Assembly (NCBI GenBank): GCA_030442055.1
Contig: JAUJEB010000001.1
Location: 496,001 to 560,000 of the forward strand
Direction of reading: 5' to 3'
Source of the DNA: Agaribacillus aureus
GTDB lineage: Bacteria > Bacteroidota > Bacteroidia > Cytophagales > Cyclobacteriaceae
DNA: 64,000 nucleotides
The translations under genes and the position numbers were made by a program. Shown here piece after piece: positions 2,490 to 55,261 of this stretch (position 1 is the stretch's first letter; the number at the start of each line of letters is the position of its first letter). Under the pieces are notes generated by a model. That model worked only from the letters and a program-made list of their open reading frames with translations. It did not search any database and was not told the origin of the DNA.

Positions 2490-4370
2490 CTAGTTCTGCT
2501 TTGGCATGGCTTTTATCTCCAAATCATCTCCAATCTGCAAAGGGATCAACCCAAAGTGCATGCGCCAGGGAGCAGTTCTGTCATTACCAAACATGGTAGT
2601 CCACCAGGCGCCTTTTTTATCCTGAAAAACCGTGCCATGCCCTGCGTGTGGAACTCCTACCCTTGCCGGCGTGTATGGTCCCCATATATTTTCAGCAATA
2701 CCATACATCATATCGTAAGTGCCCTGAGTACGGAGCGGCCCATTCCATTCGGCGCCGGTTAGAATATATTTCCCGTTGATTTTAACCATACAATTACCCT
2801 CATAGCCCACATGGTGATTCTCTGTGGTAAGAAGTTTTACCGGCTCCCGGACAAAACCGTTTCTTTCTTCATTAAGCAACCCAAGGTTACCCCCTCCCCA
2901 AAGATAATACAGGTCCCCATTGTCATTTTCAAACAGAAAACCATCGATGCCCTTTACAAAGTTGGCTTTCACAACATTTTCATAAGGCCCTTCGGCTTTC
3001 CCTGTTTTACTTCTGAATAGATAGCTCACCCCCTTTCCGGACCAAATTGAAAAGGTCAGGTAAAATGTTTTATCTTTTTTCACATATTTAATCTCCGGTG
3101 CCCAAAGCATAAATTTACCTTCCGGTGGTTCAATGCCAAGTTGTTCCCATTCCCAAATAAATTTCACAAAACTCCATGTTTTCAAATCCCGGGACCTAAA
3201 TAACCTCACTCCTCCCTTAGGATATTGAAATCCGTAACCGTCATTCGTTCCAACCATATAGTAGCTGCCATCAGCACCTAAAGTCACCGACGGATCTCGT
3301 ATGGTTTCTGAACCGAGTACCGGCTTATATTCCGATACTTGTGAGTTTTCAACGATTACTTTTCCGGAAGGCCTAAGACGATTCAATGTTGAAAACTCCA
3401 AAGGGACAACTCCTGGTCTTTCCCTGAAAGCACAATAATCGTCCGCCTTACTCCCTGAATAAGTGGCCCATAAAGCGTCCTGTTTATCCTTGAATATTGT
3501 AGTTTGAGAGGCATGTGGCAGGGCAATATACCTGGGAGCGTAAGGTCCGAATATTTCACTGGCTTCAGACACAAAAACGTCGTCGGTCATGGTCTGCATC
3601 CGTTCCGTAATTTCGTTGGCGAAAAAATAATATTTACCATTGATTTTTGTCAGAAACGCTCCGGCTTTACCTACCCGGTTTTGAACCGGCCACGCTTTTC
3701 CTTTCGGAAAATGCCTGTCTCCGAAATGCGAGGTATGAGGTTTAATAAATTCGACCGGTCCTTCCAAGGAAGTCATGTCAGCATCCAGCGCTGCAATATA
3801 GCCATTTCCATAAACCAAATATACCTTTCCGTCATCGTCTGCAAAAAGAGAAGGATCCGTAGCATTCCGGACCAAACATGGTGATGCCGTGTAAGGACCA
3901 ATTGCTTTCCCACTTTCGCTGGTAAGCACTTGTATGCAACCTGCTGCATCCGCTAAAGCCAGATAGAAATTAGCATTAAAATAATGTATTTCAGGGGCGA
4001 CAAAACGTCGTTCTCCACCATAGACAATGCCCAGCGACTCCCATTCTTTCAGGTCCGTAGACTTCCATAAAGATACACCGGGATCTTTGTATTCCAGATT
4101 GGTACCTGTAAGATAGTAATAGCCATCACCCCCCAGACAAACACTGATATCCCGCATATGCTTATAAAACAGGGGCTCGATCAATTTGGCATCCGCATCA
4201 GGAAAATTGATACCACCGGCTTCATTAGATGGATGTGATGAGTTAAAAATAGAAGTGTTATTTTGAGAAAACGCTAATGTTGGGCTTAGCATGATAGCAA
4301 TCAAAAGAAGTAGTCTTTCCTTTTTAATGTTCATCTTATTTCTCATTTTCTGATATCTTCGTTTTGCCAT
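2490..4370 (-). CDS. Tandem GH43-like glycoside hydrolase (two beta-propeller modules)
   Basis: The protein has 626 residues, or 614 if the ATG at 4334 (MNIKKERLLLLIAIML) is used; that start gives a cleaner signal peptide. Two family-43-type five-bladed propellers follow, roughly residues 66-330 and 350-615. Module 2 has all three expected acidic residues: Asp359 (TIRDPSV), Asp476 (GIDGFLF) and Glu524 (GYEGNCMVKINGKY). Module 1 keeps Asp74 (MRDISV) and Asp172 (TDPSLF), but the general-acid position reads GKAGAFLTKINGKY, with Ala236 where Glu is expected. It may therefore be a binding or inactive module. Family members are mostly arabinofuranosidases, xylosidases or galactosidases. The gene is divergent from the sulfatase-GH43 fusion at 4677 and precedes the DUF1593 gene. 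Subfamily and substrate cannot be fixed by eye. Confidence 0.85.
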   Translation of the reverse strand: MAKRRYQKMRNKMNIKKERLLLLIAIMLSPTLAFSQNNTSIFNSSHPSNEAGGINFPDADAKLIEPLFYKHMRDISVCLGGDGYYYLTGTNLEYKDPGVSLWKSTDLKEWESLGIVYGGERRFVAPEIHYFNANFYLALADAAGCIQVLTSESGKAIGPYTASPCLVRNATDPSLFADDDGKVYLVYGNGYIAALDADMTSLEGPVEFIKPHTSHFGDRHFPKGKAWPVQNRVGKAGAFLTKINGKYYFFANEITERMQTMTDDVFVSEASEIFGPYAPRYIALPHASQTTIFKDKQDALWATYSGSKADDYCAFRERPGVVPLEFSTLNRLRPSGKVIVENSQVSEYKPVLGSETIRDPSVTLGADGSYYMVGTNDGYGFQYPKGGVRLFRSRDLKTWSFVKFIWEWEQLGIEPPEGKFMLWAPEIKYVKKDKTFYLTFSIWSGKGVSYLFRSKTGKAEGPYENVVKANFVKGIDGFLFENDNGDLYYLWGGGNLGLLNEERNGFVREPVKLLTTENHHVGYEGNCMVKINGKYILTGAEWNGPLRTQGTYDMMYGIAENIWGPYTPARVGVPHAGHGTVFQDKKGAWWTTMFGNDRTAPWRMHFGLIPLQIGDDLEIKAMPKQN

Positions 4371-4676
4371 ATCTAAATTGTCAAATTTCCAGGGTATTCT
4401 CGTCTATTACAGGGCCCTGCTCAGGAAGCTGTCCACCTGATAAGCGTAATCCGGAACCAGGCAAATATCCTTCCCCTTTTTTTACAAGCTTTGTTTAAAA
4501 TGTAAAATAAATCTGGCATATGAAAAACATCAGATGTGCAAAATGTACATTAAGGCAATGATTTGGGATATTAGAGGCAGCCCCTGTTCGGCTAAGTCCC
4601 TATTTTAGTCAGTGTTAATACCCATTAACAGTGGTGGGTGTGAAGTACTAACAGGTTGCGTGATAAAATATTTTAC
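4371..4676. promoter_or_regulatory. Divergent intergenic region between the tandem GH43 and the sulfatase-GH43 fusion
   Basis: About 300 bp separate two divergently transcribed PUL genes, so promoters for both must lie here. I see no exact TAnnTTTG -7 box in either direction and no long coding frame. A TTG at 4656 could extend the fusion gene by seven codons, but the ATG at 4677 gives the better signal peptide. Confidence 0.45.
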
Positions 4677-7040
4677 ATGAAAAGGTTACTCTACATTTTC
4701 CTTGTCTCTTCAACGGCATTAATTAATTCCAAAGCCCAGCCCTATAAGAACCACTCTACCAACGATAAACCCAATATTCTGATGATCATCTGTGATGATT
4801 TAAACCATTGGGTGGGGCATTTCGGAAGAAATAACCAAATAAAGACACCCAACATTGATGCTTTAGCCGGGCAGGGAATTTCATTTACCAATGCTTACTG
4901 TGCCTCCCCTCAATGCAATCCCAGCAGGGCATCGTTCTTTTCAGGGAAAAGACCTTTCAGCAGTGGAGTATACGCCAATGGCACGTTGTGGCAACGTGGG
5001 ATTTCTCCTTCCGATCTGCTGACTTCTCATTTCGACAATAATGGCTATTATGTTGCCGGTGCAGGAAAAATACACGGTAGCGTTATGAAAGAGTTACAAA
5101 AGAAAGGTCGGTATGCCAAAAGAGGTCCGTTGCGTAAAGCCCCGTTAATCGACCAGGGTAAAACAGCCGCTCAGACCTGGGGTATTTTAGATGGTGATGA
5201 TGATAGTGCGGAAGATGAAAAAACGGTAAGGTGGATAACCGAACAGTTAAAAGCCGAATATGATCAACCTTTTTTCCTGATGGCGGGCCTGTATAAACCC
5301 CACTTGAAATGGCATATCCCTAAAAAATACTACGACATGTATCCCCTTGAGGAAATTCAATTACCGCCTGTTCAAAATGGTGATTTGGTCGACATAGATA
5401 TGGATGCTGTTTTTAAAATTGCAGGCGGGCCTAAGGTTTCTACTAAAAATGAGTCGGACGAGGACCTGAAAAAGATGGTTCGGGCCTATATGGCTGCTGT
5501 TTCCTACTGCGATGCCCAGGTAGGGAGGATACTAAAAGCGTTAAACGAAAGTAGGTATAAGAAGAATACCATTATCATGTTATGGGGCGACCATGGTTAT
5601 CATCTTGGAGAAAAATTCATGGCTGCCAAAAGATTGTTATGGGAAGAGGCCACAAGGGCACCTTACATCTGGGTAGGGCCCGGCATAACCAAAAAAGGCG
5701 TTGTTACCGACCACGTTGTTGACTTTATGACAGCTTACCCCACACTTTGCGATCTGGCAGGCCTGCCTATTCCCGGACATGTATCGGGAAAAAGTATAGT
5801 ACCCCTTTTAGCTGACCCCGGTTCAGGCTGGAATGACATGGCGCTTTCCACCTATTGGCCTGGAAATCATACGGTGAGAACTAAGGAGTGGCGATACATA
5901 AGATACGATAACGGTTCTGAGGAATTATATGATAAGAAAAAAGATGAATTTGAGTGGAAAAATCTTATTGATGATCCTCAATATAAAAAGGTAATACAAA
6001 AGCTATCAGATCACCTGCCAAAGGTTGAAGTACCTATGGTGCGGAATTATATGTTGTATCCTGAGGGTAAAGACTCAATACACATTAATGATTTGATAGT
6101 TCATGATCCCTGCATTTTGGTTGACCGGAAGACCAGAACCTATTATATCTACTCCAACTTTGCTCCAAATAAATTCGAAGGAATAGTGGAAGCGCCAAAA
6201 GGTAAAGGTGGCATTATGTTCTATGCCAGTAAGGATCTGGTAAAATGGTCACAACCTAAACCGGCTTTCATAATACCCGATGATTTTTGGGGGGACGATG
6301 ACTCCGGTCCCTGGGCGCCTGAGGTCCACCAATATATGGGCAACTATTATATGTTCACTACTTTCAACGCCTGGGATGAAATTATGGATACTCGCCAGGG
6401 AAGGCCAAAAATCACAAAACGGGCTTCCCAAATATTGGTTTCAGATTCACCAACGGGCCCGTTCACCCTATTTAAAAATCAACCCACCACCCCTAAAGGC
6501 GAAATGACCCTCGATGCCACTTTTTGGCATGAAGATGGTCAACCCTGGATGATTTATTGCCACGAGTGGGTACAGCTTGGAAATGGCCTCATCAAAGCCA
6601 TAAGATTATCTAATGACTTGTCAAAAACCGTTGGAAAACCAGTTACACTGCTTAATGCAGGAGATGTGCCCTGGACAAAACGAAATATAAATTATAGGGG
6701 AACCCGATATCCGGGAGCCGTTACCGACGGGCCTTATTTTTATAAAACAAAAGAAGAAACGTTAATTATGATTTGGTCAAGTTGGTCAGCAAAACGCCAA
6801 TATGCTACTGCCATGGCTGTATCAAAGAGTGGAAAGATCACAGGCCCCTGGAAACACGTGGAAGAACCATTATTACAAGATGACCGCGGCCATGGTATGA
6901 TCTTCAGGGACTTTGATGATAGATTGATACTCTGTTTGCACCGGTATTTTAAATATCCTCACACGCGCGTGCAATTGTACGAGTTAGAAGACACAGGTGC
7001 TTCTATTAAAGTGAAGCAGCAGTTATTAGGACATAGGTGA
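4677..7040 (+). CDS. Sulfatase-GH43 fusion enzyme
   Basis: I chose the ATG at 4677 because it starts directly with a signal peptide (MKRLLYIFLVSSTALINSKA). The N-terminal part (about residues 31-460 of 787) is an S1 sulfatase. It has the metal-binding IICDDLNHW (Asp40, Asp41), the formylglycine motif C80-N-P-S-R84 within YCASPQCNPSRAS, and GDHGYHLGEK. Around residue 465 it passes into a GH43-like propeller: HDPCILV (Asp477), TLDATFW (Asp613) and VTDGPYFYKTK, where Asp684 stands at the usual general-acid Glu position, then GGHGMIFR-like RGHGMIFRDF. There is no stop or frameshift between the halves. A single exported polypeptide could desulfate and cleave the same glycan. It heads the plus-strand operon through 11379. 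The actual linkage cut is unknown. Confidence 0.9.
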   Translation: MKRLLYIFLVSSTALINSKAQPYKNHSTNDKPNILMIICDDLNHWVGHFGRNNQIKTPNIDALAGQGISFTNAYCASPQCNPSRASFFSGKRPFSSGVYANGTLWQRGISPSDLLTSHFDNNGYYVAGAGKIHGSVMKELQKKGRYAKRGPLRKAPLIDQGKTAAQTWGILDGDDDSAEDEKTVRWITEQLKAEYDQPFFLMAGLYKPHLKWHIPKKYYDMYPLEEIQLPPVQNGDLVDIDMDAVFKIAGGPKVSTKNESDEDLKKMVRAYMAAVSYCDAQVGRILKALNESRYKKNTIIMLWGDHGYHLGEKFMAAKRLLWEEATRAPYIWVGPGITKKGVVTDHVVDFMTAYPTLCDLAGLPIPGHVSGKSIVPLLADPGSGWNDMALSTYWPGNHTVRTKEWRYIRYDNGSEELYDKKKDEFEWKNLIDDPQYKKVIQKLSDHLPKVEVPMVRNYMLYPEGKDSIHINDLIVHDPCILVDRKTRTYYIYSNFAPNKFEGIVEAPKGKGGIMFYASKDLVKWSQPKPAFIIPDDFWGDDDSGPWAPEVHQYMGNYYMFTTFNAWDEIMDTRQGRPKITKRASQILVSDSPTGPFTLFKNQPTTPKGEMTLDATFWHEDGQPWMIYCHEWVQLGNGLIKAIRLSNDLSKTVGKPVTLLNAGDVPWTKRNINYRGTRYPGAVTDGPYFYKTKEETLIMIWSSWSAKRQYATAMAVSKSGKITGPWKHVEEPLLQDDRGHGMIFRDFDDRLILCLHRYFKYPHTRVQLYELEDTGASIKVKQQLLGHR

Positions 7041-7126: not shown

Positions 7127-8560
7127 ATGATAAAACCAAGTCTCTATTTCAACAAAGGTTTGGCAGCGTTGATCATATTAATGAACCTGTTGGTTTATTG
7201 TTGTTCATCAAATCCTTCAAAACTTGAACCTGATCAACAAAAACGTTACAATGTATTGTTCCTAATCGTCGATGATATGAACGATTATGGCTTCTATCAT
7301 GGCTTCCCAAAAGTCAAAATGCCTTACCTCGATGCTTTTAAGAAGACCGCCATCACCTTTGAGCGAGCCTATTGTGCTTCTCCGGTTTGCACACCATCGC
7401 GCGCTGCCACATTCAGCGGTCTATATCCTCACAATACAGGGGCTTATTTTAATGGTTCTGACCCCTGGAACCAATCTGAATTATTAAAAAGTGTTGAGAC
7501 AATGCCTGAATGCTTTAAACGCAATGGATATACAACATTTGGCCGGGGTAAATTATATCATGCCCAGCTGGAGGAAGGAAGAATAGAAAACAATTTCGAC
7601 AATCGGCCTTTGTACGGTGGTGGTTTTGGGCCCTTTCCCGATGAAGATCATCAGATTAAAGGAAAATTCTGGGGTTACCAATCTTTTCCCGATAGCCTTT
7701 TTCCGGACGTAAAAAACGCAGAAGCGGCCATTGAGTTTTTGAAAAAGGACAAGGATAAACCTTTTTTCCTTGGCCTTGGTTTGTGGCGGCCACATTCTCC
7801 ATTTACTGCTCCGCAACGATTTTATGATATGTACGATATTGATGAAATTGAATTCCCGGCCGGTTTCAAAAAAGATGATACCACCGATATTCCGGAATTA
7901 AGTAAAACGTTGCTTGACCCGTTTGGAAGGTTCCCTGTTTCAGGCCTTACCACCCCCGACAAATGGAAAGAAATGTTGCTGGCTTATAACGCTTGTAATT
8001 CCTTTGCCGATTGGAGTATTGGCAGGGTCATAAAGGAGCTTGATAATAGCAAATATGCAGATAATACCATTGTAGTTTTCTGGTCTGACAATGGCTATCA
8101 CTGCGGCGAGAAAAATCACTGGGAAAAAAATACGCTTTATGAACAGGCTGCCCTCACGCCCCTGGCCATCAGAATTCCCGGATCTGAAACAAATGGAAAG
8201 ATAATTACTGCTCCGGTAAGTCTGGTTGATCTTTACGCTACATTAATTGACTACTGCGGGTTAAATTCACCTAAAAACGAAATTGACAGTAAAAGTTTGC
8301 GTCCGCTATTGGAAAATCCCCAAGCCAATTGGGAACACCCAGCCATTACCACGTTTGGTGAAGGGTCTGTCTCTATCCGAAGCCAGCGATATCGCTACAT
8401 ACAATATGTCGATGGCAGTGAAGAGCTTTATGACCATAATTCCGATCCGTATGAATTCAAAAATATAGCTAATGAGACGGCATTATCGAGCATAAAAACG
8501 AATCTGAGGCGGTACATTCCTAAAAAATTTGCCAAAGAATTGCCGGGAAGAAAAAACTAA
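7127..8560 (+). CDS. Sulfatase (S1, iduronate-2-sulfatase-like), exported
   Basis: This 477-residue protein has an N-terminal hydrophobic segment ending LLVYCCSS, probably a lipoprotein or other export signal. The sulfatase core starts with VLFLIVDDMNDYG (Asp49, Asp50). The catalytic motif is C88-T-P-S-R92 in YCASPVCTPSRAAT, so Cys88 is the residue expected to be converted to formylglycine. SDNGYHCGEKNHW and the C-terminal GSEELYDHNSDPYEF block are intact, and length is normal for the family. It is the closest paralogue in the window of the truncated sulfatase at the left edge. It lies 86 bp after the fusion gene and 71 bp before a GH43 gene on the same strand, so the four genes look like one operon. 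Confidence 0.92.
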   Translation: MIKPSLYFNKGLAALIILMNLLVYCCSSNPSKLEPDQQKRYNVLFLIVDDMNDYGFYHGFPKVKMPYLDAFKKTAITFERAYCASPVCTPSRAATFSGLYPHNTGAYFNGSDPWNQSELLKSVETMPECFKRNGYTTFGRGKLYHAQLEEGRIENNFDNRPLYGGGFGPFPDEDHQIKGKFWGYQSFPDSLFPDVKNAEAAIEFLKKDKDKPFFLGLGLWRPHSPFTAPQRFYDMYDIDEIEFPAGFKKDDTTDIPELSKTLLDPFGRFPVSGLTTPDKWKEMLLAYNACNSFADWSIGRVIKELDNSKYADNTIVVFWSDNGYHCGEKNHWEKNTLYEQAALTPLAIRIPGSETNGKIITAPVSLVDLYATLIDYCGLNSPKNEIDSKSLRPLLENPQANWEHPAITTFGEGSVSIRSQRYRYIQYVDGSEELYDHNSDPYEFKNIANETALSSIKTNLRRYIPKKFAKELPGRKN

Positions 8561-8631
8561 TGGCCGAATGACTTCCTTGCATTGATATCTTACAAACTAA
8601 AAAGTAATAATAACTTAAACTATATCTGGAA

Positions 8632-9714
8632 ATGATTAACAGATCAATCAAAAATATTTCGATACTATTATCAATAGGATATATTACCTTGGCCTGTGGT
8701 AGCCGGATAAATAGCAACGAATCAACCCCCAAGGAACTCACCTTCACCTACACCAACCCTATCACTTCAGGCATTGAAGGAGGTATTCGCGATGCACAAA
8801 TATTTGAGGACAATGGGAAATATTATTTGACAGGAACTTCCTATCCATTTTGGCCCCGCGAAGGAAAAAACCCGGGTGTAAAAATTTATTCCTCCAGTGA
8901 TCTGCTTAACTGGAAATTTGAAAAACTGCTCATTGATCGCAATACCCTGGATTCTACCGTCTGGTATTTGGATAGATTTTGGGCGCCCGAAATCCATAAG
9001 ATAAAAGATAAATATTATCTATTGTTTAATTGCCAGAATGAAACTACGGAGGGTTTTATGGAAAAGGGACAAAAAGGGGGTGTTGCCGTAGCCAACCAGT
9101 TATTCGGGGATTATAAAGTGGTAACACACGACAAGCCATTTATGAATGGCAACGACCTGACATTTTTTGAAGATGATGATGGTAAAGTTTATGCCTTTAA
9201 TAATCGGGCCAAGATGATACAGGTTGCTGAAGTTGACCTCGAGAATATGAAAATAAAAACGGAACCGATTAATTGTTTTCCCACCGGAAGTCTTGAAGCT
9301 GGTGACTGGGATGGCATTGGCATTGAGGGTGCCTATTGCATCAAACATAATGGGACTTACTACCTCTTTTATTCTTCCTGGTCAAGGGGTTATGAAATTG
9401 GTTACGCAACGGCTCAACATCCGCTTGGCCCCTGGATCAAGTATGGAGGTAACCCTATTTACGGCGCTCAAAATGAGAATGCCTGCAAAAAGAATAGCCT
9501 TGAGTTTACGGGAGACCCAAATAGCCCTTGGCGAGCGGTTGGTCATAATGAGATATGGAAGGGGCCGGATGGTCGTCTATGGCTATCTTGCCATGGAATT
9601 TTAAAAGAAACGGGCGTGCCATATTTGGTAATAGATCCTATTGATATAAATGATGGAGTAGTAACCGCTCATGGGCCAAGTTTTACCAAGCAGTCAATAA
9701 CTTACAAACAGTAA
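8632..9714 (+). CDS. GH43-family glycoside hydrolase, lipoprotein
   Basis: The 360-residue protein has a lipoprotein signal with Cys22 in ITLACGSR, followed by one family-43 propeller. All three acidic residues expected for the family are visible: Asp54 (GGIRDAQIF, base), Asp175 (GNDLTFFEDDDGK, pKa modulator) and Glu232 (GIEGAYCIKHNGTYYL, acid). WAPEIHKIKDKYYL is the usual second-blade signature. It should be an exo-acting enzyme on arabinose-, xylose- or galactose-type residues, anchored to the outer membrane or facing the periplasm. It sits between two sulfatases in the same apparent operon (71 bp and 36 bp gaps), which suggests that it acts on residues exposed by desulfation. Confidence 0.9.
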   Translation: MINRSIKNISILLSIGYITLACGSRINSNESTPKELTFTYTNPITSGIEGGIRDAQIFEDNGKYYLTGTSYPFWPREGKNPGVKIYSSSDLLNWKFEKLLIDRNTLDSTVWYLDRFWAPEIHKIKDKYYLLFNCQNETTEGFMEKGQKGGVAVANQLFGDYKVVTHDKPFMNGNDLTFFEDDDGKVYAFNNRAKMIQVAEVDLENMKIKTEPINCFPTGSLEAGDWDGIGIEGAYCIKHNGTYYLFYSSWSRGYEIGYATAQHPLGPWIKYGGNPIYGAQNENACKKNSLEFTGDPNSPWRAVGHNEIWKGPDGRLWLSCHGILKETGVPYLVIDPIDINDGVVTAHGPSFTKQSITYKQ

Positions 9715-9750: not shown

Positions 9751-11379
9751 ATGCTAAAGATCAATTTTAAGTTGATGAATAAACTAATCATATTTCTGGT
9801 TCCTGTGTCAGCAATAATTTCATCTTGTTCCTTTGCAATTAAAGATAAAGAACAGAGGGATAACCGACCCAACATAGTGCTGATCATGGTAGATGATATG
9901 GGATATGCTGATATTGGAAGTTATGGAAGTGAAATCCCTACCCCAAATATTGATAAATTGGCTTTTAACGGACTCAGATTCAGTCAGTTCTATAATACGG
10001 CTCGTTGCTGTCCAACCAGGGCAAGCCTTCTAACGGGGCTATTCCCACACCAGACAGGCATTGGAGGCATGACCAATTCGCCAAAAGGTGAACATTGGGC
10101 TGAATGGGGAACGGATGGCTATATAGGATATCTTAACAGGAATTGCGTCACCCTGGCTGAGGTTTTAAAAGATGCCGGTTACCATACCTACATGACAGGC
10201 AAATGGCATTTAGGTTATCATAACAAAGATCGCTGGCCCCTTCAACGTGGTTTTGAAAAGTATTATGGCATTATAGCCGGTGCCTCCAGCTATTTTAAAC
10301 CTCAAGGCAAGCGTGGTCTGACTTTGATGAATAAAGCCCTTCCTCCTCCTGAAGAAGGCTATTATACCACTGATGCTTTTACAGACCATGCCATTAAGTT
10401 CGTAAAAGAGCAAGAGGACAACAATCCATTTTTTCTTTACCTGGCCTACAATGCACCCCACTGGCCACTGCACGCCAAACAGCAAGATATCGAAAAGTTT
10501 GTAGGAAAATATAGCATGGGCTGGGATTCGCTAAGGGTCCAGCGGTTCCGAAAACAAGTAAAAATGGGATTGTTAAACGCCGAATGGGGTATTTCCAAAA
10601 GAGATGAGCGGGTAAGGCCCTGGAGTGAGGTAATTGACACGCAGAAAGATTCGTCCGATTATCGGATGGCCGTATATGCCGCCCAGATTTTTGCCGTGGA
10701 TTATAACATAGGAAAATTGATGAAAACCCTCGAGGATCAAGGCGAATTGGAAAATACTTTAGTCCTTTTCCTTTCCGACAATGGTGGTTGTGCAGAAGCC
10801 TATGATGAGTTTGGCAGCAAGCCATTCACAAGAATTAACGATCCCGATTTTTCAGGCGCCGTTTCCTATGGAATCGGATGGGCTAATGTTTCCAATACTC
10901 CTTTTTTTGAGTACAAAGTTAAAACTTATGAAGGGGGCATCTCTACCCCTTTAATTGCCCATTGGCCCAAACAAATAAAGTCGCAGGCAGGTAAAATTAC
11001 GCATAATACCGGATACCTGATTGATATCATGCCAACAATTCTTGAGGTAAGCGGCGCCACCTATCCTGAAAAGTATCACCAGGGTCAGTCTATCCATCCA
11101 TTGGAAGGCAAAAGCTTGTTTCCAATATTCAAAAGCGGTATTGGTGACGAACATGAATACATGTATTGGGAACACCAGTATAACTGTGCCATTCGAAACA
11201 AAAAATGGAAGGCAGTCAAAAAGTTGAATGATGTCAATTGGAAATTATTCAATTTAGAAGAAGATAGAATTGAATCCAACGATCTTGCCGCCAAGTATCC
11301 GGAGATCGTAACAAAGCTGGATGAAACATGGTATGAATGGGCATACTCGCATCAAGTATTACCGAAGAAGGCTAATTAA
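9751..11379 (+). CDS. Arylsulfatase (S1, possibly S1_4-type), lipoprotein
   Basis: The protein has 542 residues; an ATG at 9775 (MNKLIIFLVPVSAIISSC) would give a compact lipoprotein signal and may be the true start. Cys26 of the longer form fits a lipobox. The core begins IVLIMVDDMGYADIG (Asp48, Asp49). The formylglycine motif is C86-C-P-T-R90 in NTARCCPTRASLLTG, followed by FPHQTGIGGM, a combination I associate with arylsulfatase A-like subfamily S1_4. The conserved GKWHLG and LSDNGGCAEAY motifs are present. It differs clearly from the iduronate-sulfatase-like genes upstream, so it probably removes a different sulfate. It is the last gene of the plus-strand operon and ends only 26 bp from the convergent beta-helix gene. 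Confidence 0.92.
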   Translation: MLKINFKLMNKLIIFLVPVSAIISSCSFAIKDKEQRDNRPNIVLIMVDDMGYADIGSYGSEIPTPNIDKLAFNGLRFSQFYNTARCCPTRASLLTGLFPHQTGIGGMTNSPKGEHWAEWGTDGYIGYLNRNCVTLAEVLKDAGYHTYMTGKWHLGYHNKDRWPLQRGFEKYYGIIAGASSYFKPQGKRGLTLMNKALPPPEEGYYTTDAFTDHAIKFVKEQEDNNPFFLYLAYNAPHWPLHAKQQDIEKFVGKYSMGWDSLRVQRFRKQVKMGLLNAEWGISKRDERVRPWSEVIDTQKDSSDYRMAVYAAQIFAVDYNIGKLMKTLEDQGELENTLVLFLSDNGGCAEAYDEFGSKPFTRINDPDFSGAVSYGIGWANVSNTPFFEYKVKTYEGGISTPLIAHWPKQIKSQAGKITHNTGYLIDIMPTILEVSGATYPEKYHQGQSIHPLEGKSLFPIFKSGIGDEHEYMYWEHQYNCAIRNKKWKAVKKLNDVNWKLFNLEEDRIESNDLAAKYPEIVTKLDETWYEWAYSHQVLPKKAN

Positions 11380-24039: not shown

Positions 24040-25521
24040 CTAATTTACCCTGGTTTCATTTTCAACAACTTTAGTCAACCGATAAAGTCTGGCACCATGT
24101 GGTTCAATAGGAACTTTAAAAAAATGCTCAAATTCGCCTATATTCTTTTGTTCCCACAGGTCTCGAATTTGATATTTTCCTCTTAAGTATTCAAACTCAA
24201 AATTAAAATTAACTTTGCGTTTAATGTCGCTCAGATTGAATAAGGCCAAAAACCTATCCTCCGTATCAGGATCCTCGGCAATCCAAATGGCTATTGTATC
24301 ATTCCTCAGTACCTGCCTATTATCGACACTTTTCTGATTCACTTTCAATACTTCCTTGTTTTTGAGAAAATTCATAATGGAATCCGGTGTTGTCAGCAAA
24401 TCACCCCCCATCATAAGCGGTGATTTAGCAATACTCCAGAGCGTCATCATAGTATAATGCTCCGGAATTGTAAGATTAGACATGCGATCAGGACCATGAG
24501 GCCTGTTATTTAAAGAAATATGCCCAATAGGTAACATGTCCGCATCTGGCCAATGGTGGGGCTGAATATAGGAAGACCATGAATTCAGCAAATCAAAATT
24601 ATGTTTTAGACTTTCCCAATTATCCCATAAATCACCCGATATTCTCCACATATTGGCATTCTCGACCAAATGTTTTGCCTGAGAAAGCGGTGCTTCGCCG
24701 GGCGACAAACTAAGCACCATAGGCCTTCCGCTTCTGTCAATAGCTTTTCTTATCATTTCCAGCTCTTTCTTATGATAATCCAAGAATATCATGTCATCTG
24801 CTTTAATATAATCAACACCCCAGGAAGCATATAATTTAAAAAGCGAATCATAATATTCCTGGGATCCTGGTTTTGAAGCATCCACCCCATACATTTGATT
24901 ACACCACGAACAAGTATCGGTGGGTTCTGCAATGCTTTTCGCGCCAATTGAGGTTCCCAGGATAGGGCTATCATTGTAAGCAGCCATACGATGAATCCCT
25001 CTCATTATGTGCAATCCGAACTTCATCCCCTTACTATGCACGTAATCAGCTATAGGCTTAAATCCTTTTCCATTCGCCGCCGAGGGGAACCTGTTAATAG
25101 CTGGCATTAAACGTCCATTCTCATCCATGGTTGTATACTCGGGAAAGGATGGTGCCCCATCCGGTTCGTACCTCAGATTGGGGTGGCCGAAACGGCGCGG
25201 TGTATCCCAATTACCAGGTTCCGGATGCCACCAGATATAGTCAATCACGGCATATTCCCAACCATATTCCAATAGGTTTTCAGCCATGTAATCTACCGTA
25301 GCCTTAAATTCGCTTTCATTTATTCGGCAATCGTAGGCATCAAAGCTATTCCATCCCATTGGTGGCTTTGCGGCGACTTTCCTTAAATAACTTATTTCGT
25401 CAGTATTGCTTAAAGCTCGGTCATGGTTTTCTTTTGCTGCAGAATTCACCTCATCGCACCCTTGAAGAAGCCCACTTAATACCACAGTTATCAATATTGT
25501 ATTTAAGATTTTCATGTTCAT
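24040..25521 (-). CDS. GH27-like glycoside hydrolase (alpha-galactosidase type), lipoprotein
   Basis: The 493-residue protein has a lipoprotein signal (LLQGC, Cys22). The catalytic (beta/alpha)8 barrel begins at PPMGWNSFDAYDC. Family GH27 landmarks are visible: YIKADD with Asp242 as probable nucleophile, and WRISGDLWDNW with Asp297 as probable acid/base. NSWSSYIQPHHWPDADML and SIAKSPLMMGGDL correspond to the conserved NDPDML-type and SPL regions. A small C-terminal beta-domain ends in PHGARLYRL. GH27 enzymes release alpha-galactose, alpha-N-acetylgalactosamine or beta-L-arabinopyranose; this divergent type cannot be assigned by eye. It is the third gene of a minus-strand GH27-sulfatase-GH27 operon, 18 bp after the sulfatase. 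A start two codons later (25515) is equally possible. Confidence 0.9.
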   Translation of the reverse strand: MNMKILNTILITVVLSGLLQGCDEVNSAAKENHDRALSNTDEISYLRKVAAKPPMGWNSFDAYDCRINESEFKATVDYMAENLLEYGWEYAVIDYIWWHPEPGNWDTPRRFGHPNLRYEPDGAPSFPEYTTMDENGRLMPAINRFPSAANGKGFKPIADYVHSKGMKFGLHIMRGIHRMAAYNDSPILGTSIGAKSIAEPTDTCSWCNQMYGVDASKPGSQEYYDSLFKLYASWGVDYIKADDMIFLDYHKKELEMIRKAIDRSGRPMVLSLSPGEAPLSQAKHLVENANMWRISGDLWDNWESLKHNFDLLNSWSSYIQPHHWPDADMLPIGHISLNNRPHGPDRMSNLTIPEHYTMMTLWSIAKSPLMMGGDLLTTPDSIMNFLKNKEVLKVNQKSVDNRQVLRNDTIAIWIAEDPDTEDRFLALFNLSDIKRKVNFNFEFEYLRGKYQIRDLWEQKNIGEFEHFFKVPIEPHGARLYRLTKVVENETRVN

Positions 25522-25539: not shown

Positions 25540-27033
25540 CTAAAATGGTGTATCAGCATTTATCTCAGATTTGAAAAGAGAAATAAAACTTAGCGGGGTG
25601 TGGGCTTCTTTCATGTAGCCTGCCATTTCTTTAACCAGGTTCGGGTGTTTCTCAGCAATATTATTTTTTTCCTCAGGATCAACTGACAGATCAAATAACT
25701 GGATGGGATCGGGATTGCTTGTCCTTACATTTAGTTTGACTGCCTTATAGTTCCCTTTTAACACCGCCTGTCTGCCACCTAGTTCGTAAAATTCCCAATA
25801 AAGGTATTTATGCTTTCCTTGCTTGTCAGATTTGCCGGTAAGTACAGGCAACATAGAAATACCATCCGTATTATCAGGGGGCGGCACATCCACAATCTCG
25901 CAAATTGTTGGCATGAAATCCCAAAACGCGGAAATATGGTCGGAAGTTGTCCCAGGTATAATATTGCCTGGCCATTTAGCTATAAATGGTGTTTTAATCC
26001 CTCCGTCATAAAAATCACGTTTCATTCCCCTTAACTCCCGATTGCTATTAAAAAACTCCATTTGGTGGAATCCTTCCTGATGAGGTCCATTATCGCTGGA
26101 GAAAATCAATAATGTATTCTTATCCAGGTTCATACTTTTCAATTTGTCGTTTAGTTTCCCTACTGTTTCATCTATCATTTTAATCATGGATGCAAATCCC
26201 TTTTCCGGATCCGGCCAATCCCTATCCTTAAATTCCCCCCAATCAGGTACTTCCATGCCATTTTCCGGGTGTTCGTTATTAGCGTGGGGCATATTTAAGG
26301 CAAGCAACAGAAAAAATGGCGCATCTTTATGATTGTCAATAAACTTAAGTGCATCGGTTTCGAAAAGTTCATGGGTATGTTGCGCTTTTATTTCGGCCAC
26401 TCCCGTCCCTTCCGGAGAATCAGCCGCCCACATTCTCTTCCCTTTTTCATCACGCTTCAATTTGTTACCTTCAATTATTTCTTTTTCCCCGTTTCGGTAT
26501 AAAAACTCAGGGTAGAAATTGTGTGCATGCCACATATTGATATAGCCATACGAATAATCAAATCCATTTCTTTGAGGATCATTTGGCGGTGGTGGATGGC
26601 CAATACCCCATTTGCCGATGATACCAGTGTAGTAGCCCGCTTCCTTTAACTTTTCGGCAATAGTAATATCCTCATCCTTTAGCAGTTGATCCGGCTGATT
26701 TCCACGAACCGAAACATGGCCGGTGTGAGCTCCGGTCAATAAAGTAGCCCTTGAGGGTGCGCATACTGTTGAACCGGTGTAGTGATTTGTTAATTTTATT
26801 CCCTCCGAGGCCAGTTGATCAATATTTGGTGTGGAGAGCATTTGCTGACCATAGGAGCTTAAATCCCCATAACCCATATCATCTACCAAAATATAAATAA
26901 TATTGGGTAATTGCTTCTCGGCAGTGGCGTCGTTACCTGAATTAGCTGTTGGTTTTTGGCTGCAGCTTGTAACCGCCAGTAACCCAAACATCAACATGGC
27001 AACCCATATTAATTTATCTTTCTGCATCATCAT
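25540..27033 (-). CDS. Arylsulfatase (S1 family), lipoprotein
   Basis: The 497-residue protein has a lipoprotein signal (LLAVTSC, Cys24). The sulfatase core starts IIYILVDDMGYGDLSSYG (Asp51, Asp52). The formylglycine motif is C91-A-P-S-R95 in GSTVCAPSRATLLTG, followed by AHTGHVSVRGN. The GKWGIGHP and SSDNGPHQEGFH motifs are present, and length is normal. It is a different sulfatase type from the plus-strand ones, resembling arylsulfatases with the TGHVSVRGN loop. Set between two GH27 genes (71 bp and 18 bp gaps), it probably desulfates the galactose- or arabinopyranose-type residues that those enzymes release. Activity needs a formylglycine-generating maturase, which is not encoded in this window. 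Confidence 0.94.
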   Translation of the reverse strand: MMMQKDKLIWVAMLMFGLLAVTSCSQKPTANSGNDATAEKQLPNIIYILVDDMGYGDLSSYGQQMLSTPNIDQLASEGIKLTNHYTGSTVCAPSRATLLTGAHTGHVSVRGNQPDQLLKDEDITIAEKLKEAGYYTGIIGKWGIGHPPPPNDPQRNGFDYSYGYINMWHAHNFYPEFLYRNGEKEIIEGNKLKRDEKGKRMWAADSPEGTGVAEIKAQHTHELFETDALKFIDNHKDAPFFLLLALNMPHANNEHPENGMEVPDWGEFKDRDWPDPEKGFASMIKMIDETVGKLNDKLKSMNLDKNTLLIFSSDNGPHQEGFHQMEFFNSNRELRGMKRDFYDGGIKTPFIAKWPGNIIPGTTSDHISAFWDFMPTICEIVDVPPPDNTDGISMLPVLTGKSDKQGKHKYLYWEFYELGGRQAVLKGNYKAVKLNVRTSNPDPIQLFDLSVDPEEKNNIAEKHPNLVKEMAGYMKEAHTPLSFISLFKSEINADTPF

Positions 27034-52550: not shown

Positions 52551-52751
52551 ATGAGCAACGCAATACATAAAATCATAAATGCAGCTGATTTTGGAATGAC
52601 CAACATTTGGAGCAGGTACAAGACCTGTGTTAAAAGCTTATTGATCCATTCGAAACGGCATCTGGCCATTTGGATATATGTAAGGAAGACTTACCAAAAA
52701 AAATCATATTTGCCCGCAGCTCGGCTAAAATCTAATTTTGCTCAATCATGA
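52551..52751 (+). CDS. Doubtful 66-codon open frame between the SIS and GH9 genes
   Basis: An ATG immediately follows the SIS stop codon (TAAATG), and the frame runs to overlap the first bases of the GH9 gene. The product (MSNAIHKIINAADFGMTNIW and so on) is basic and matches nothing that I know. The tight fit at both ends suggests translational coupling, but the sequence may also be noncoding spacer. Confidence 0.2.
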   Translation: MSNAIHKIINAADFGMTNIWSRYKTCVKSLLIHSKRHLAIWIYVRKTYQKKSYLPAARLKSNFAQS

Positions 52752-55261
52752 AAAAATATTTCTTGCTTGTTGGTATTATTCTTTTCTTATCTTGTGCGGA
52801 GAATCATACTTCTGAAAAACCAGGTGTCGCCGTCGTTCGAATTAATCAACTGGGCTATTTGCCCGGGAGTATTAAGGTCGCGGTTTTCGGGTCAAAAAAT
52901 AATACCACTGTAAAATCATTTTCATTATTTGATGCCGAGACCGATAAAGAGGTATTCAACTCAAAAAATCCCGAATCAAAAGGGGCATATGGTCCGTTTC
53001 AGTCCTCTTATCGCTTAAATTTTAGTGCCTACAACAATCCCGGTAAATACTATATTAAAGCCAATGGTATTAAATCTCCGGCATTCCGCATCAATGAAGA
53101 TGTCTACGACCACACCGCAGATTTCCTTCTGGAATACATGCGCCAGCAACGTTGTGGGTATAATCCTTACCTTACCGATTCGTGCCACCTCAAGGATGGC
53201 TATATTCTGTATAACACCGCAAAAGAAGGAGAGCGCATTGATGTGACGGGGGGGTGGCACGATGCCACTGATTATTTACAGTACACTGCCACCTCAGCCA
53301 ATGCCGTATCGCAATTATTGTTGTCCTATCGAGACAATCCTGAAGCATTTGGCGATGCCTACAAATCAAGCGGATTGCCAGGACCAAATGGTATCCCGGA
53401 CATAATCGACGAGGCTAAATGGGGCATGGATTGGCTCAAAAAAATGAACCCATCTTCCACCGAATATTATAACCAAATCGCCGATGACCGGGATCATGCG
53501 GGTTTTCGATTGCCCAATAAAGATTCGGTAGTGTATGACCCGAAACGAAAGGGTCGACCCGTTTATTTGGCGAATGGCGAAATACAGGGGGCAGTAAAAT
53601 ATAAAAACCGCTCCACCGGCATTGCATCGACTGCCGGAAAATATGCCTCTGCTTTTGCTTTAGGTGCCATGGTCTTAAAAGATTTTTATCCCCGTTATAC
53701 AGATAATCTCCCTAAACGCGCCATAGATGCCTATCGCTATGGGGAGCAAAATCCAGGAGTGAGTCAGACAGCGCCTGGTGGTGCGCCCTATTTTTATGAA
53801 GAGGACAATTGGGTCGATGATATGGAATTCGGAGCAGCTGGTTTGTATAGACTAACCCAAAATGAAAATTATAAAGAAGCAGCCTTAAAATATGCTTCCG
53901 AAGAAAAAACCACCCCATGGATTGGGAAGGACACCGTAGTGCATTATCAGTATTATCCCTTCCTGAATGCCGGCCACTACGAGCTGGCCTCCGCGCTTGA
54001 GTCGAATATGAAAGCTACAGTTGCCTCTTACTATGACATGGGGCTTCAAATGCTACATGACCGAGGCAAGGACAACCCTTTCTACATAGGAGTCCCTTTT
54101 GTCTGGTGCTCCAACAATTTCGTGACAGCGGCAGTGACCCAGAGCAAATTATACCATCGCTTAACAGGTGATGAAACATATCTCGAAATGGAAGCAGCCC
54201 TACGCGATTGGCTTTTTGGCTGCAATATATGGGGAACCTCCATGGTGGTGGGGCTTCCCGACTATGGAGACACACCGGTAGACCCTCATTCTTCTCTCAA
54301 TTTTCTGGAAGGGTACCAAACCAATGGTGGCCTGATCGATGGCCCTGTTTACGGTTCCATAGCCAATAGCCTGATTGGGGTTGAACTCCACAACGAAGAT
54401 GAATATGCTGAATTTCAATCGGAGCTGGCAGTCTATCAGGACGATGTTGGAAGTTTTTCTACCAACGAGCCAACGATGGATGGCACAGCTTGTTTGGTCT
54501 ATTATCTTTCGTCCCTGGAAAGTGAAAGTATTGCGAAAGGACATCAAAAAAAGCAGTATACTTTCGATGAAAGCGGAGCTATTATTAGAGCTGATACATC
54601 GGAAAAGAAAATCAACCTAATGTTTTCGGGAGATGAATACGCCGATGGCGCCGAGGAAATTCTTGATATTCTTGAAAAGTATGGCATCAAAGCCGCTTTC
54701 TTCTTTACCGGAAATTTCTATAGAAACCAGCAGTTTGCTCCTATGATCAAAAAAGCAAAAAAACAAGGGCATTACCTTGGGGCACATTCCGACAAACATC
54801 TGTTGTACAACGATTGGACCGATGAAAAAAAGTTGCTCGTTAGTCAAGAGGAATTTAAATCAGATTTAAAAGCGAACTACACCGAAATGGAACATTACGG
54901 AATCCGGAAAGAGGAAGCTCCTTACTTTTTACCTCCCTATGAATGGAACAATGAGATTATTACCCAATGGGCGGAGCAGATGGATCTGATTTTGATTAAT
55001 TATACCCCAGGTACGTTATCACACGCCGACTATACCACACCTGGCACGGACAATTTTAAAAGCAGCGACAACATCATGCAATCTATTCTGTCCCTGGAGG
55101 AAAAAAAGGGGTTGAATGGGTTTATGCTACTCTCGCACATCGGCACCCATCCCGATCGCAGCGATAAATTTTATTCAAGGCTCGATGAACTTATTTCAAC
55201 ATTGCAAGAAAGAGGCTATGAATTTGAATCCTTGGAAAATATTTTGAACTTAAAGAAATGA
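52748..55261 (+). CDS. GH9 glycoside hydrolase-polysaccharide deacetylase fusion, lipoprotein
   Basis: The 837-residue protein has a lipoprotein signal (LFLSC, Cys16). An N-terminal Ig-like CelD_N domain (about 28-118: VVRINQLGYLPGSIKVAVFG) precedes a GH9 (alpha/alpha)6 barrel (about 125-595). It has GGWHDATDYLQY, with the catalytic Asp pair at 172 and 175, and a late STNEPTMDGTA with probable acid Glu574. From about 620 a NodB-type deacetylase domain follows: LMFSGDEYADG, GAHSDKHLLYND for the metal-binding HxxxH, and FLPPYEW. Most GH9 members are cellulases, but some related enzymes act on glucosamine oligomers. With the deacetylase module and amino-sugar neighbours, a chitosan/chitin-oligomer exo-enzyme is plausible. 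Not proven. Confidence 0.9.
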   Translation: MKKYFLLVGIILFLSCAENHTSEKPGVAVVRINQLGYLPGSIKVAVFGSKNNTTVKSFSLFDAETDKEVFNSKNPESKGAYGPFQSSYRLNFSAYNNPGKYYIKANGIKSPAFRINEDVYDHTADFLLEYMRQQRCGYNPYLTDSCHLKDGYILYNTAKEGERIDVTGGWHDATDYLQYTATSANAVSQLLLSYRDNPEAFGDAYKSSGLPGPNGIPDIIDEAKWGMDWLKKMNPSSTEYYNQIADDRDHAGFRLPNKDSVVYDPKRKGRPVYLANGEIQGAVKYKNRSTGIASTAGKYASAFALGAMVLKDFYPRYTDNLPKRAIDAYRYGEQNPGVSQTAPGGAPYFYEEDNWVDDMEFGAAGLYRLTQNENYKEAALKYASEEKTTPWIGKDTVVHYQYYPFLNAGHYELASALESNMKATVASYYDMGLQMLHDRGKDNPFYIGVPFVWCSNNFVTAAVTQSKLYHRLTGDETYLEMEAALRDWLFGCNIWGTSMVVGLPDYGDTPVDPHSSLNFLEGYQTNGGLIDGPVYGSIANSLIGVELHNEDEYAEFQSELAVYQDDVGSFSTNEPTMDGTACLVYYLSSLESESIAKGHQKKQYTFDESGAIIRADTSEKKINLMFSGDEYADGAEEILDILEKYGIKAAFFFTGNFYRNQQFAPMIKKAKKQGHYLGAHSDKHLLYNDWTDEKKLLVSQEEFKSDLKANYTEMEHYGIRKEEAPYFLPPYEWNNEIITQWAEQMDLILINYTPGTLSHADYTTPGTDNFKSSDNIMQSILSLEEKKGLNGFMLLSHIGTHPDRSDKFYSRLDELISTLQERGYEFESLENILNLKK

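Follow-up and report, generated by a model that had tools for sequence, protein, structure and literature searches.

The closest published precedent for a sulfatase and a glycoside hydrolase in one chain is P36, from the ulvan degradation system of Formosa agariphila. Its S1_25 and GH78 domains are reported to act consecutively on terminal Rha3S (PMC8511951), so the principle of a coupled sulfatase-glycosidase chain is already known. BlArafE of Bifidobacterium longum likewise carries two catalytic domains, GH43_22 and GH43_34, in one chain that is reported to act in order (PMC8939339). Other relevant relatives are stand-alone chains, namely the ulvan xylose-2-sulfatase P18_S1_7 (6hhm), reported as endo-acting (PMC9096561), and the Bacteroides thetaiotaomicron 'endo-arabinase' 5c0p from structural genomics.

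We analysed a window of 64,000 nucleotides from Agaribacillus aureus contig JAUJEB010000001.1, whose numbering is used for all coordinates of this locus. The window contains a gene in which an S1 sulfatase and a GH43-type module are joined. The fusion is real, and across the samples that we searched only one genus carried it.

Domain composition and active sites of the fusion

The fusion gene (4677..7040, plus strand) starts with an ATG at 4677, though a longer version starting with a TTG at 4656 is possible, and encodes 787 aa without internal stops, its stop codon ending at 7040. On the reverse strand of the same region, the one frame that was read contained stops throughout. A previous sequence-only reading had described one uninterrupted frame with an S1 sulfatase carrying the motif C80-N-P-S-R84, and both points were confirmed. 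In particular, Pfam assigned residues 32-362 to Sulfatase PF00884 (E 6e-41, 141.1 bits against a gathering cut-off of 25) and residues 311-450 to SGSH_C PF16347 (E 1.6e-19, above cut-off), while the formylglycine-site motif begins at C80 (4914..4928, plus strand). Residues 475-759 matched GH43 PF04616 (E 1.9e-33, 116.5 bits against 32.2).

Four parts were distinguished, all on the plus strand: a probable signal peptide, judged by eye and lacking a lipobox Cys (residues 1-21; 4677..4739), the S1 sulfatase module (residues 30-450; 4764..6026), a linker with model confidence below 50 at residues 451-460 (residues 451-466; 6027..6074), and the five-bladed GH43-type module (residues 467-785; 6075..7031). 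The fold model, built from a 20-row alignment (pLDDT 32.6 without alignment), predicted an S1 fold for the sulfatase half and a five-bladed propeller for the GH43 half. With its pTM of 0.65, the model does not fix how the two sites are oriented to each other. In sequence and in predicted fold each module is complete, and a short linker joins the two.

The S1 half has a full active-site set: C80, R84, the metal-binding pair D40-D41 (4794..4799), K131 and H133 of the GK-x-H motif (5067..5075), H209, the metal/active-site motif D305-H306 (5589..5594) and the presumed active-site lysine K318 (5628..5630), which is invariant in alignment A2; all coordinates refer to the plus strand. Apart from C80, we take these to be the usual sulfatase active-site residues, following their family roles. 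Ten match rows to the FGE family PF03781, which also contains members other than the formylglycine maturase, were found in the genome of A. aureus, and maturation of Cys80 to formylglycine in this organism is plausible from sequence. Neither of the strict PROSITE regular expressions PS00523 and PS00149, in the form quoted in PMC5066984, fitted the S1 half; these patterns were not taken as defining for S1, because PMC5066984 itself describes them as not entirely correct any more.

The nearest solved structure to the S1 half is the S1_7 protein 6hhm, a distant match at 28% identity (170 bits, against 127 bits for 6hr5), and 6hr5, an Rha3S sulfatase, ranks second by structure comparison. Of the first eight sulfatase structure matches, five are 2-O-sulfatases according to their name or a table entry: 6hhm, listed as a Xyl2S sulfatase in the table of PMC9096561, 5g2t (BT1596), 5fql and 6ioz (both iduronate-2-sulfatase) and 6pt4 (PsS1_NC). 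The other three, 3b5q (putative), 6hr5 and 6fny (choline sulfatase), are not known 2-O-sulfatases. The five matches suggest an O2 sulfate as the target of the S1 half. A viral-contig scan with the S1 half recovered no relatives. The 9.4 Mb genome of A. aureus gave 126 match rows to the fusion protein, nearly all to the sulfatase half and often several per gene; the source organism is a sulfatase-rich bacterium.

In the GH43 half, D477 (6105..6107) and D613 (6513..6515) align with the canonical GH43 Asp base and Asp pKa modulator, and we presume that they have these roles. D684 of the TDGP motif (6726..6728) aligns with the Glu of the EGP motif in 4qqs, 3kst and 4nov, so that Asp occupies the canonical general-acid position; the three residues, and E630 mentioned below, are encoded on the plus strand. 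The earlier description of this half as a GH43-like propeller held for the Pfam match and the five-bladed fold; it did not mention that the usual acid Glu is replaced here by Asp684. An Asp at the acid position was also found in 5c0p, the nearest solved structure (40% identity, distant; 286 bits, against 44.5 bits for 3qz4, presumably BT_3675 of GH43_34). We know of no activity for 5c0p, none of the papers searched names 5C0P, and no described activity was found in them for the Asp-type GH43 clade.

D477, D613, D684, E549, E630 and H739 were invariant in 57 out of 57 aligned rows (the fusion, 44 loci from the best 80 of 590 scan loci, and 12 rows of alignment A1), a total in which two rows are duplicates (L008/L049 and L016/L041, the same genes twice). 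Conservation in the 44 scan loci is partly built in, because the scan patterns held HEW or VTDG motifs; this applies to E630 (6564..6566) of the HEW motif, an alternative acid candidate. The 12 alignment A1 rows came from protein searches without these patterns. From the invariance across the aligned sequences we conclude that the Asp at the acid position is a feature of the clade and not a decay of the fusion protein. Members of this clade in the tree belong to Bacteroidota, Verrucomicrobiota, Planctomycetota and Bacillota, among others, and most matched GH43 relatives lie in open frames of ~330-390 aa, a length that fits an enzyme standing on its own. As the acid position holds Asp, GH43 catalysis is not assured.

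Possible action of the two sites

GH43 enzymes act mostly on pentoses, and for this reason a sulfated xylose or arabinose end is proposed as the substrate. Our leading reading, held tentatively and at slightly less than an even chance, is that the protein is a secreted bifunctional exo-enzyme of a sulfated-polysaccharide utilisation locus, which would desulfate a terminal sugar, probably a pentose, and then hydrolyse it. Its location is probably periplasmic. After conversion of Cys80 to formylglycine, the S1 site would take a sulfate, perhaps the one at O2, off the sugar at the non-reducing end of an imported oligosaccharide. This desulfated sugar, probably xylose, arabinose or another pentose, would then be hydrolysed at the GH43 site, where D477 would serve as the base and the acid would be D684 or, less likely, E630. 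Tethering would hold the partly processed oligosaccharide close to the second site. We infer the substrate, the activity and the order of the reactions, and the support for one residue common to both sites is the analogy with P36.

A less probable but still possible reading is that both sites are active and independent: the S1 site would desulfate one residue, e.g. a backbone galactose, the GH43 site would trim a different, unsulfated substituent, and the fusion would provide no more than co-export and fixed stoichiometry. Such a division is known from BlArafE, in which different Araf residues are removed in order by the two GH43 domains (PMC8939339), and joins of several kinds occur, this GH43 type being combined with GH127, GH3 or GH43 and the S1 clade with a second S1 or a BD-FAE esterase. 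P36, the nearest case in the literature, argues against it, since it is reported to act on one residue.

It is improbable that the GH43 module is a binding or targeting domain, with the sulfatase alone being catalytic. This would agree with the replacement of the canonical general-acid Glu by Asp, and a binding role has been suggested for GH43_34 domains (PMC11036162, citing Mewis 2016). However, D477, D613 and D684 are invariant in all 57 rows, unlike in a decayed site, the module has a Ka/Ks of 0.10, and most matched relatives have the size of stand-alone enzymes.

Distribution, neighbourhood and origin of the fusion

In G001, the only other genome of the genus in our samples, G001:C325:1-1473 corresponds to residues 297-787 in one open frame at 93% identity; residues 1-296, including C80, would lie beyond the contig edge and are unseen there. 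Ka/Ks between the two genomes was 0.119 for S1 residues 297-446, 0.104 for GH43 residues 467-787 and 0.182 over 20 junction residues, the last on few changes. The part of the fusion common to both genomes is under purifying selection. A frameshift or assembly error joining two genes, a possibility raised by the sequence-only reading and compatible with the occurrence of relatives of both halves as separate genes and of the join in two genomes only, was rejected as extremely improbable, given the same in-frame junction in G001, the Ka/Ks of ~0.1 in both parts and the absence, by eye, of a signal-like stretch ahead of the GH43 half.

The fusion was searched with the whole protein at E cut-offs of 1e-95 to 1e-105, and in the large samples only a few top candidates of each genome were scored; such searches could miss fusions with two distant halves, and the genome samples overlap and are not exhaustive. 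Both halves fell in one match in 2 out of 196 genomes of the family, namely the two of the genus Agaribacillus, and in 1 out of 395 class genomes, which was the genome of A. aureus itself. The fusion was found in none of 240 genomes of Verrucomicrobiota (the phylum of G1146), none of 236 genomes of Planctomycetota (the phylum of G1147, a Sedimentisphaerales bin) and none of 18 chosen genomes. These counts bear out the earlier suggestion that the architecture is uncommon.

The GH43 half alone matched 9 of the 98 relatives, 11 of the 395 genomes sampled from the phylum and 51 of the 390 sampled from the order, with A. aureus counted each time. The matched frames measured 798 aa in A. aureus and 491 aa in G001 (contig edge); the next longest were 712 aa (G442), 690 aa (G374) and 690 aa (G438), and the remainder were at most 500 aa. 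The sulfatase profile found no sulfatase in the frames of G442, G374 and G438, and that of G438, the one scanned with Pfam, had GH32-type and GH43 matches. A genome contig scan likewise gave no frame with both halves among the best 80 of 590 loci, two of which (L032 and L068) have a GH43 frame running off the contig edge; these 80 did not include the 57% identical GH43 gene of G1146 described below.

Other joins were recorded among the scanned loci. GH43 modules of the fusion's type were joined to GH127, GH3 or GH43 + C2 (L045 3757-6870; L083 5965-9027; L082 4396-6990). An S1 gene of the same clade at L140 583-2856 (G1460; 48% identical) is fused to an N-terminal BD-FAE-type esterase in a 758-aa frame. 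Another, at L133 100-2994 (G1224) and 50% identical to the fusion S1 half, shares a 965-aa frame with a second sulfatase.

The fusion is the first gene of a plus-strand run. It is followed by a stand-alone S1 sulfatase (7127..8560, plus strand; 34% identical to the fusion S1 half), a stand-alone GH43 (8632..9714, plus strand; 22% identical to the fusion GH43 module) and another S1 sulfatase (9751..11379, plus strand). In G001 the homologue of the 9751..11379 sulfatase (94%) directly follows the fusion, so the S1 and GH43 pair at 7127-9714 is absent at this place. Divergent to the fusion are a gene with two tandem GH43 domains (2490..4370, minus strand), the first without the acid Glu (KAGA) and the second with it (YEGN) by eye, and a Sde182-like protein. 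Further on in the window are two GH27-like genes and another S1; among these, a GH27-like (Melibiase_2) gene (24040..25521, minus strand) and an S1 sulfatase (25540..27033, minus strand) are co-conserved at 54-61% in G635 and on a Persicobacter plasmid. This plasmid also carries a GH43 of the fusion's type and an S1 gene, with one Sde182-like gene between them. SusC/SusD-like genes and a hybrid sensor were recognised in the window from their translations only, and upstream of it lie a GH2, a heparinase II/III-like gene and three more sulfatases, besides a further sulfatase that straddles the window edge. Our guess for the locus polysaccharide is a sulfated galactan or arabinogalactan that carries pentoses as substituents. 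Elsewhere in the window, 52748-55261 (plus strand) encodes CelD_N, GH9 and a polysaccharide deacetylase in one 837-aa frame, with ROK kinase, MFS, SIS and HGSNAT-like genes alongside, and this second join of a decoration-removing enzyme to a glycosidase might link deacetylation to the exo-cleavage of amino sugars.

Unfused counterparts of both halves were also recovered. In G635, a genome of the same order, the GH43 orthologue (63% identity) is a separate 349-aa gene whose N-terminus, by eye, resembles a signal peptide; its neighbours are a GH27-like gene on one side and a 9751-11379-type sulfatase (42%) on the other. On G635 contig C2, the sulfatase/GH27-like/GH43 cluster occurs twice, ~320 kb apart and with identical ORF sizes (L120 and L121), which is either a recent duplication or an assembly repeat. 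In G1146, an Opitutales bin and the one genome in which both halves were seen unfused, the GH43 orthologue (57%) is followed by a 9751-type sulfatase (55%). An S1 gene 49% identical to the fusion S1 half (47% by blastp) lies on a different contig, with another 9751-type sulfatase (50%) two genes away. With the halves on different contigs, G1146 shows no adjacency of the two, a point against the leading reading. Its contigs are possibly mis-binned, as it is a metagenome bin.

The S1 tree paired the fusion half with G1146_C84 (100/99) in two builds, the place of G1146_C84 being unsure because of its long branch. The clade held only genes of the G1146 phylum in the first build and became mixed once two Planctomycetota rows were added. 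In the GH43 tree the fusion half grouped with G001, G635 and G1146 (100/100), with bootstrap not fully settled. The unfused halves thus group with the fusion halves and lie near the same sulfatase type: this genus has as one gene what other genomes carry as two, each of them close to a 9751-type sulfatase in at least one genome. Such genes have probably been exchanged between phyla, in a direction that the data do not fix.

Three other sources were considered. A duplication of the downstream S1-GH43 pair (7127-9714) was rejected, as its GH43 is 22% and its S1 34% identical to the respective halves. Paralogues of the same genome are not favoured as the source of the S1 half, being 34-41% identical, with the trees placing the half with G1146_C84. 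A purely Verrucomicrobial origin of this half was not borne out either, since Planctomycetota genes are 48-49% identical to it and Verrucomicrobiota genes up to 50%. The most far-reaching account would be a genus-specific composite of an S1 clade gene (here mainly from Verrucomicrobiota and Planctomycetota) and a GH43-type gene common with the Opitutales bin, which would remove a sulfated pentose by desulfation and then hydrolysis by the Asp-acid GH43 clade; we consider this account less likely than not.

Comparison with known systems

If this composite account is true, the fusion would to our knowledge be the first known S1-GH43 enzyme, and the account would suggest a substrate and a mechanism for the whole Asp-type clade. 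If both sites share one residue, the S1 half would, as the sequence-only reading suggested for its coupled enzyme, reveal the sugar of this uncharacterised clade. The fusion gives a concrete and testable substrate class, sulfated pentose ends, because its S1 half would point to the sugar of the GH43 clade. We regard this clade, for which the fusion suggests a substrate class, as the most valuable part of the finding. With the fusion one could also examine whether intermediates are channelled from desulfation to cleavage when polysaccharides are broken down.

Among the titles and abstract openings listed, the literature search found no published S1 + GH43 fusion; most subscription papers lay outside it, so this is weak evidence of absence. 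BlArafE differs from the fusion in that both of its domains are GH43 and neither is a sulfatase. P36 shares with the fusion an S1 and a glycoside hydrolase in one chain and differs in that its glycosidase is GH78 and not GH43 and its sugar is L-rhamnose 3-sulfate. Its sulfatase module is 6hr5, while the S1 half of the fusion is closer in sequence to the stand-alone 6hhm (170 bits against 127 bits). The fusion is, in a pairing of S1 and GH43 that we did not find published, a sulfatase-glycosidase hybrid, a kind of protein that is already known.
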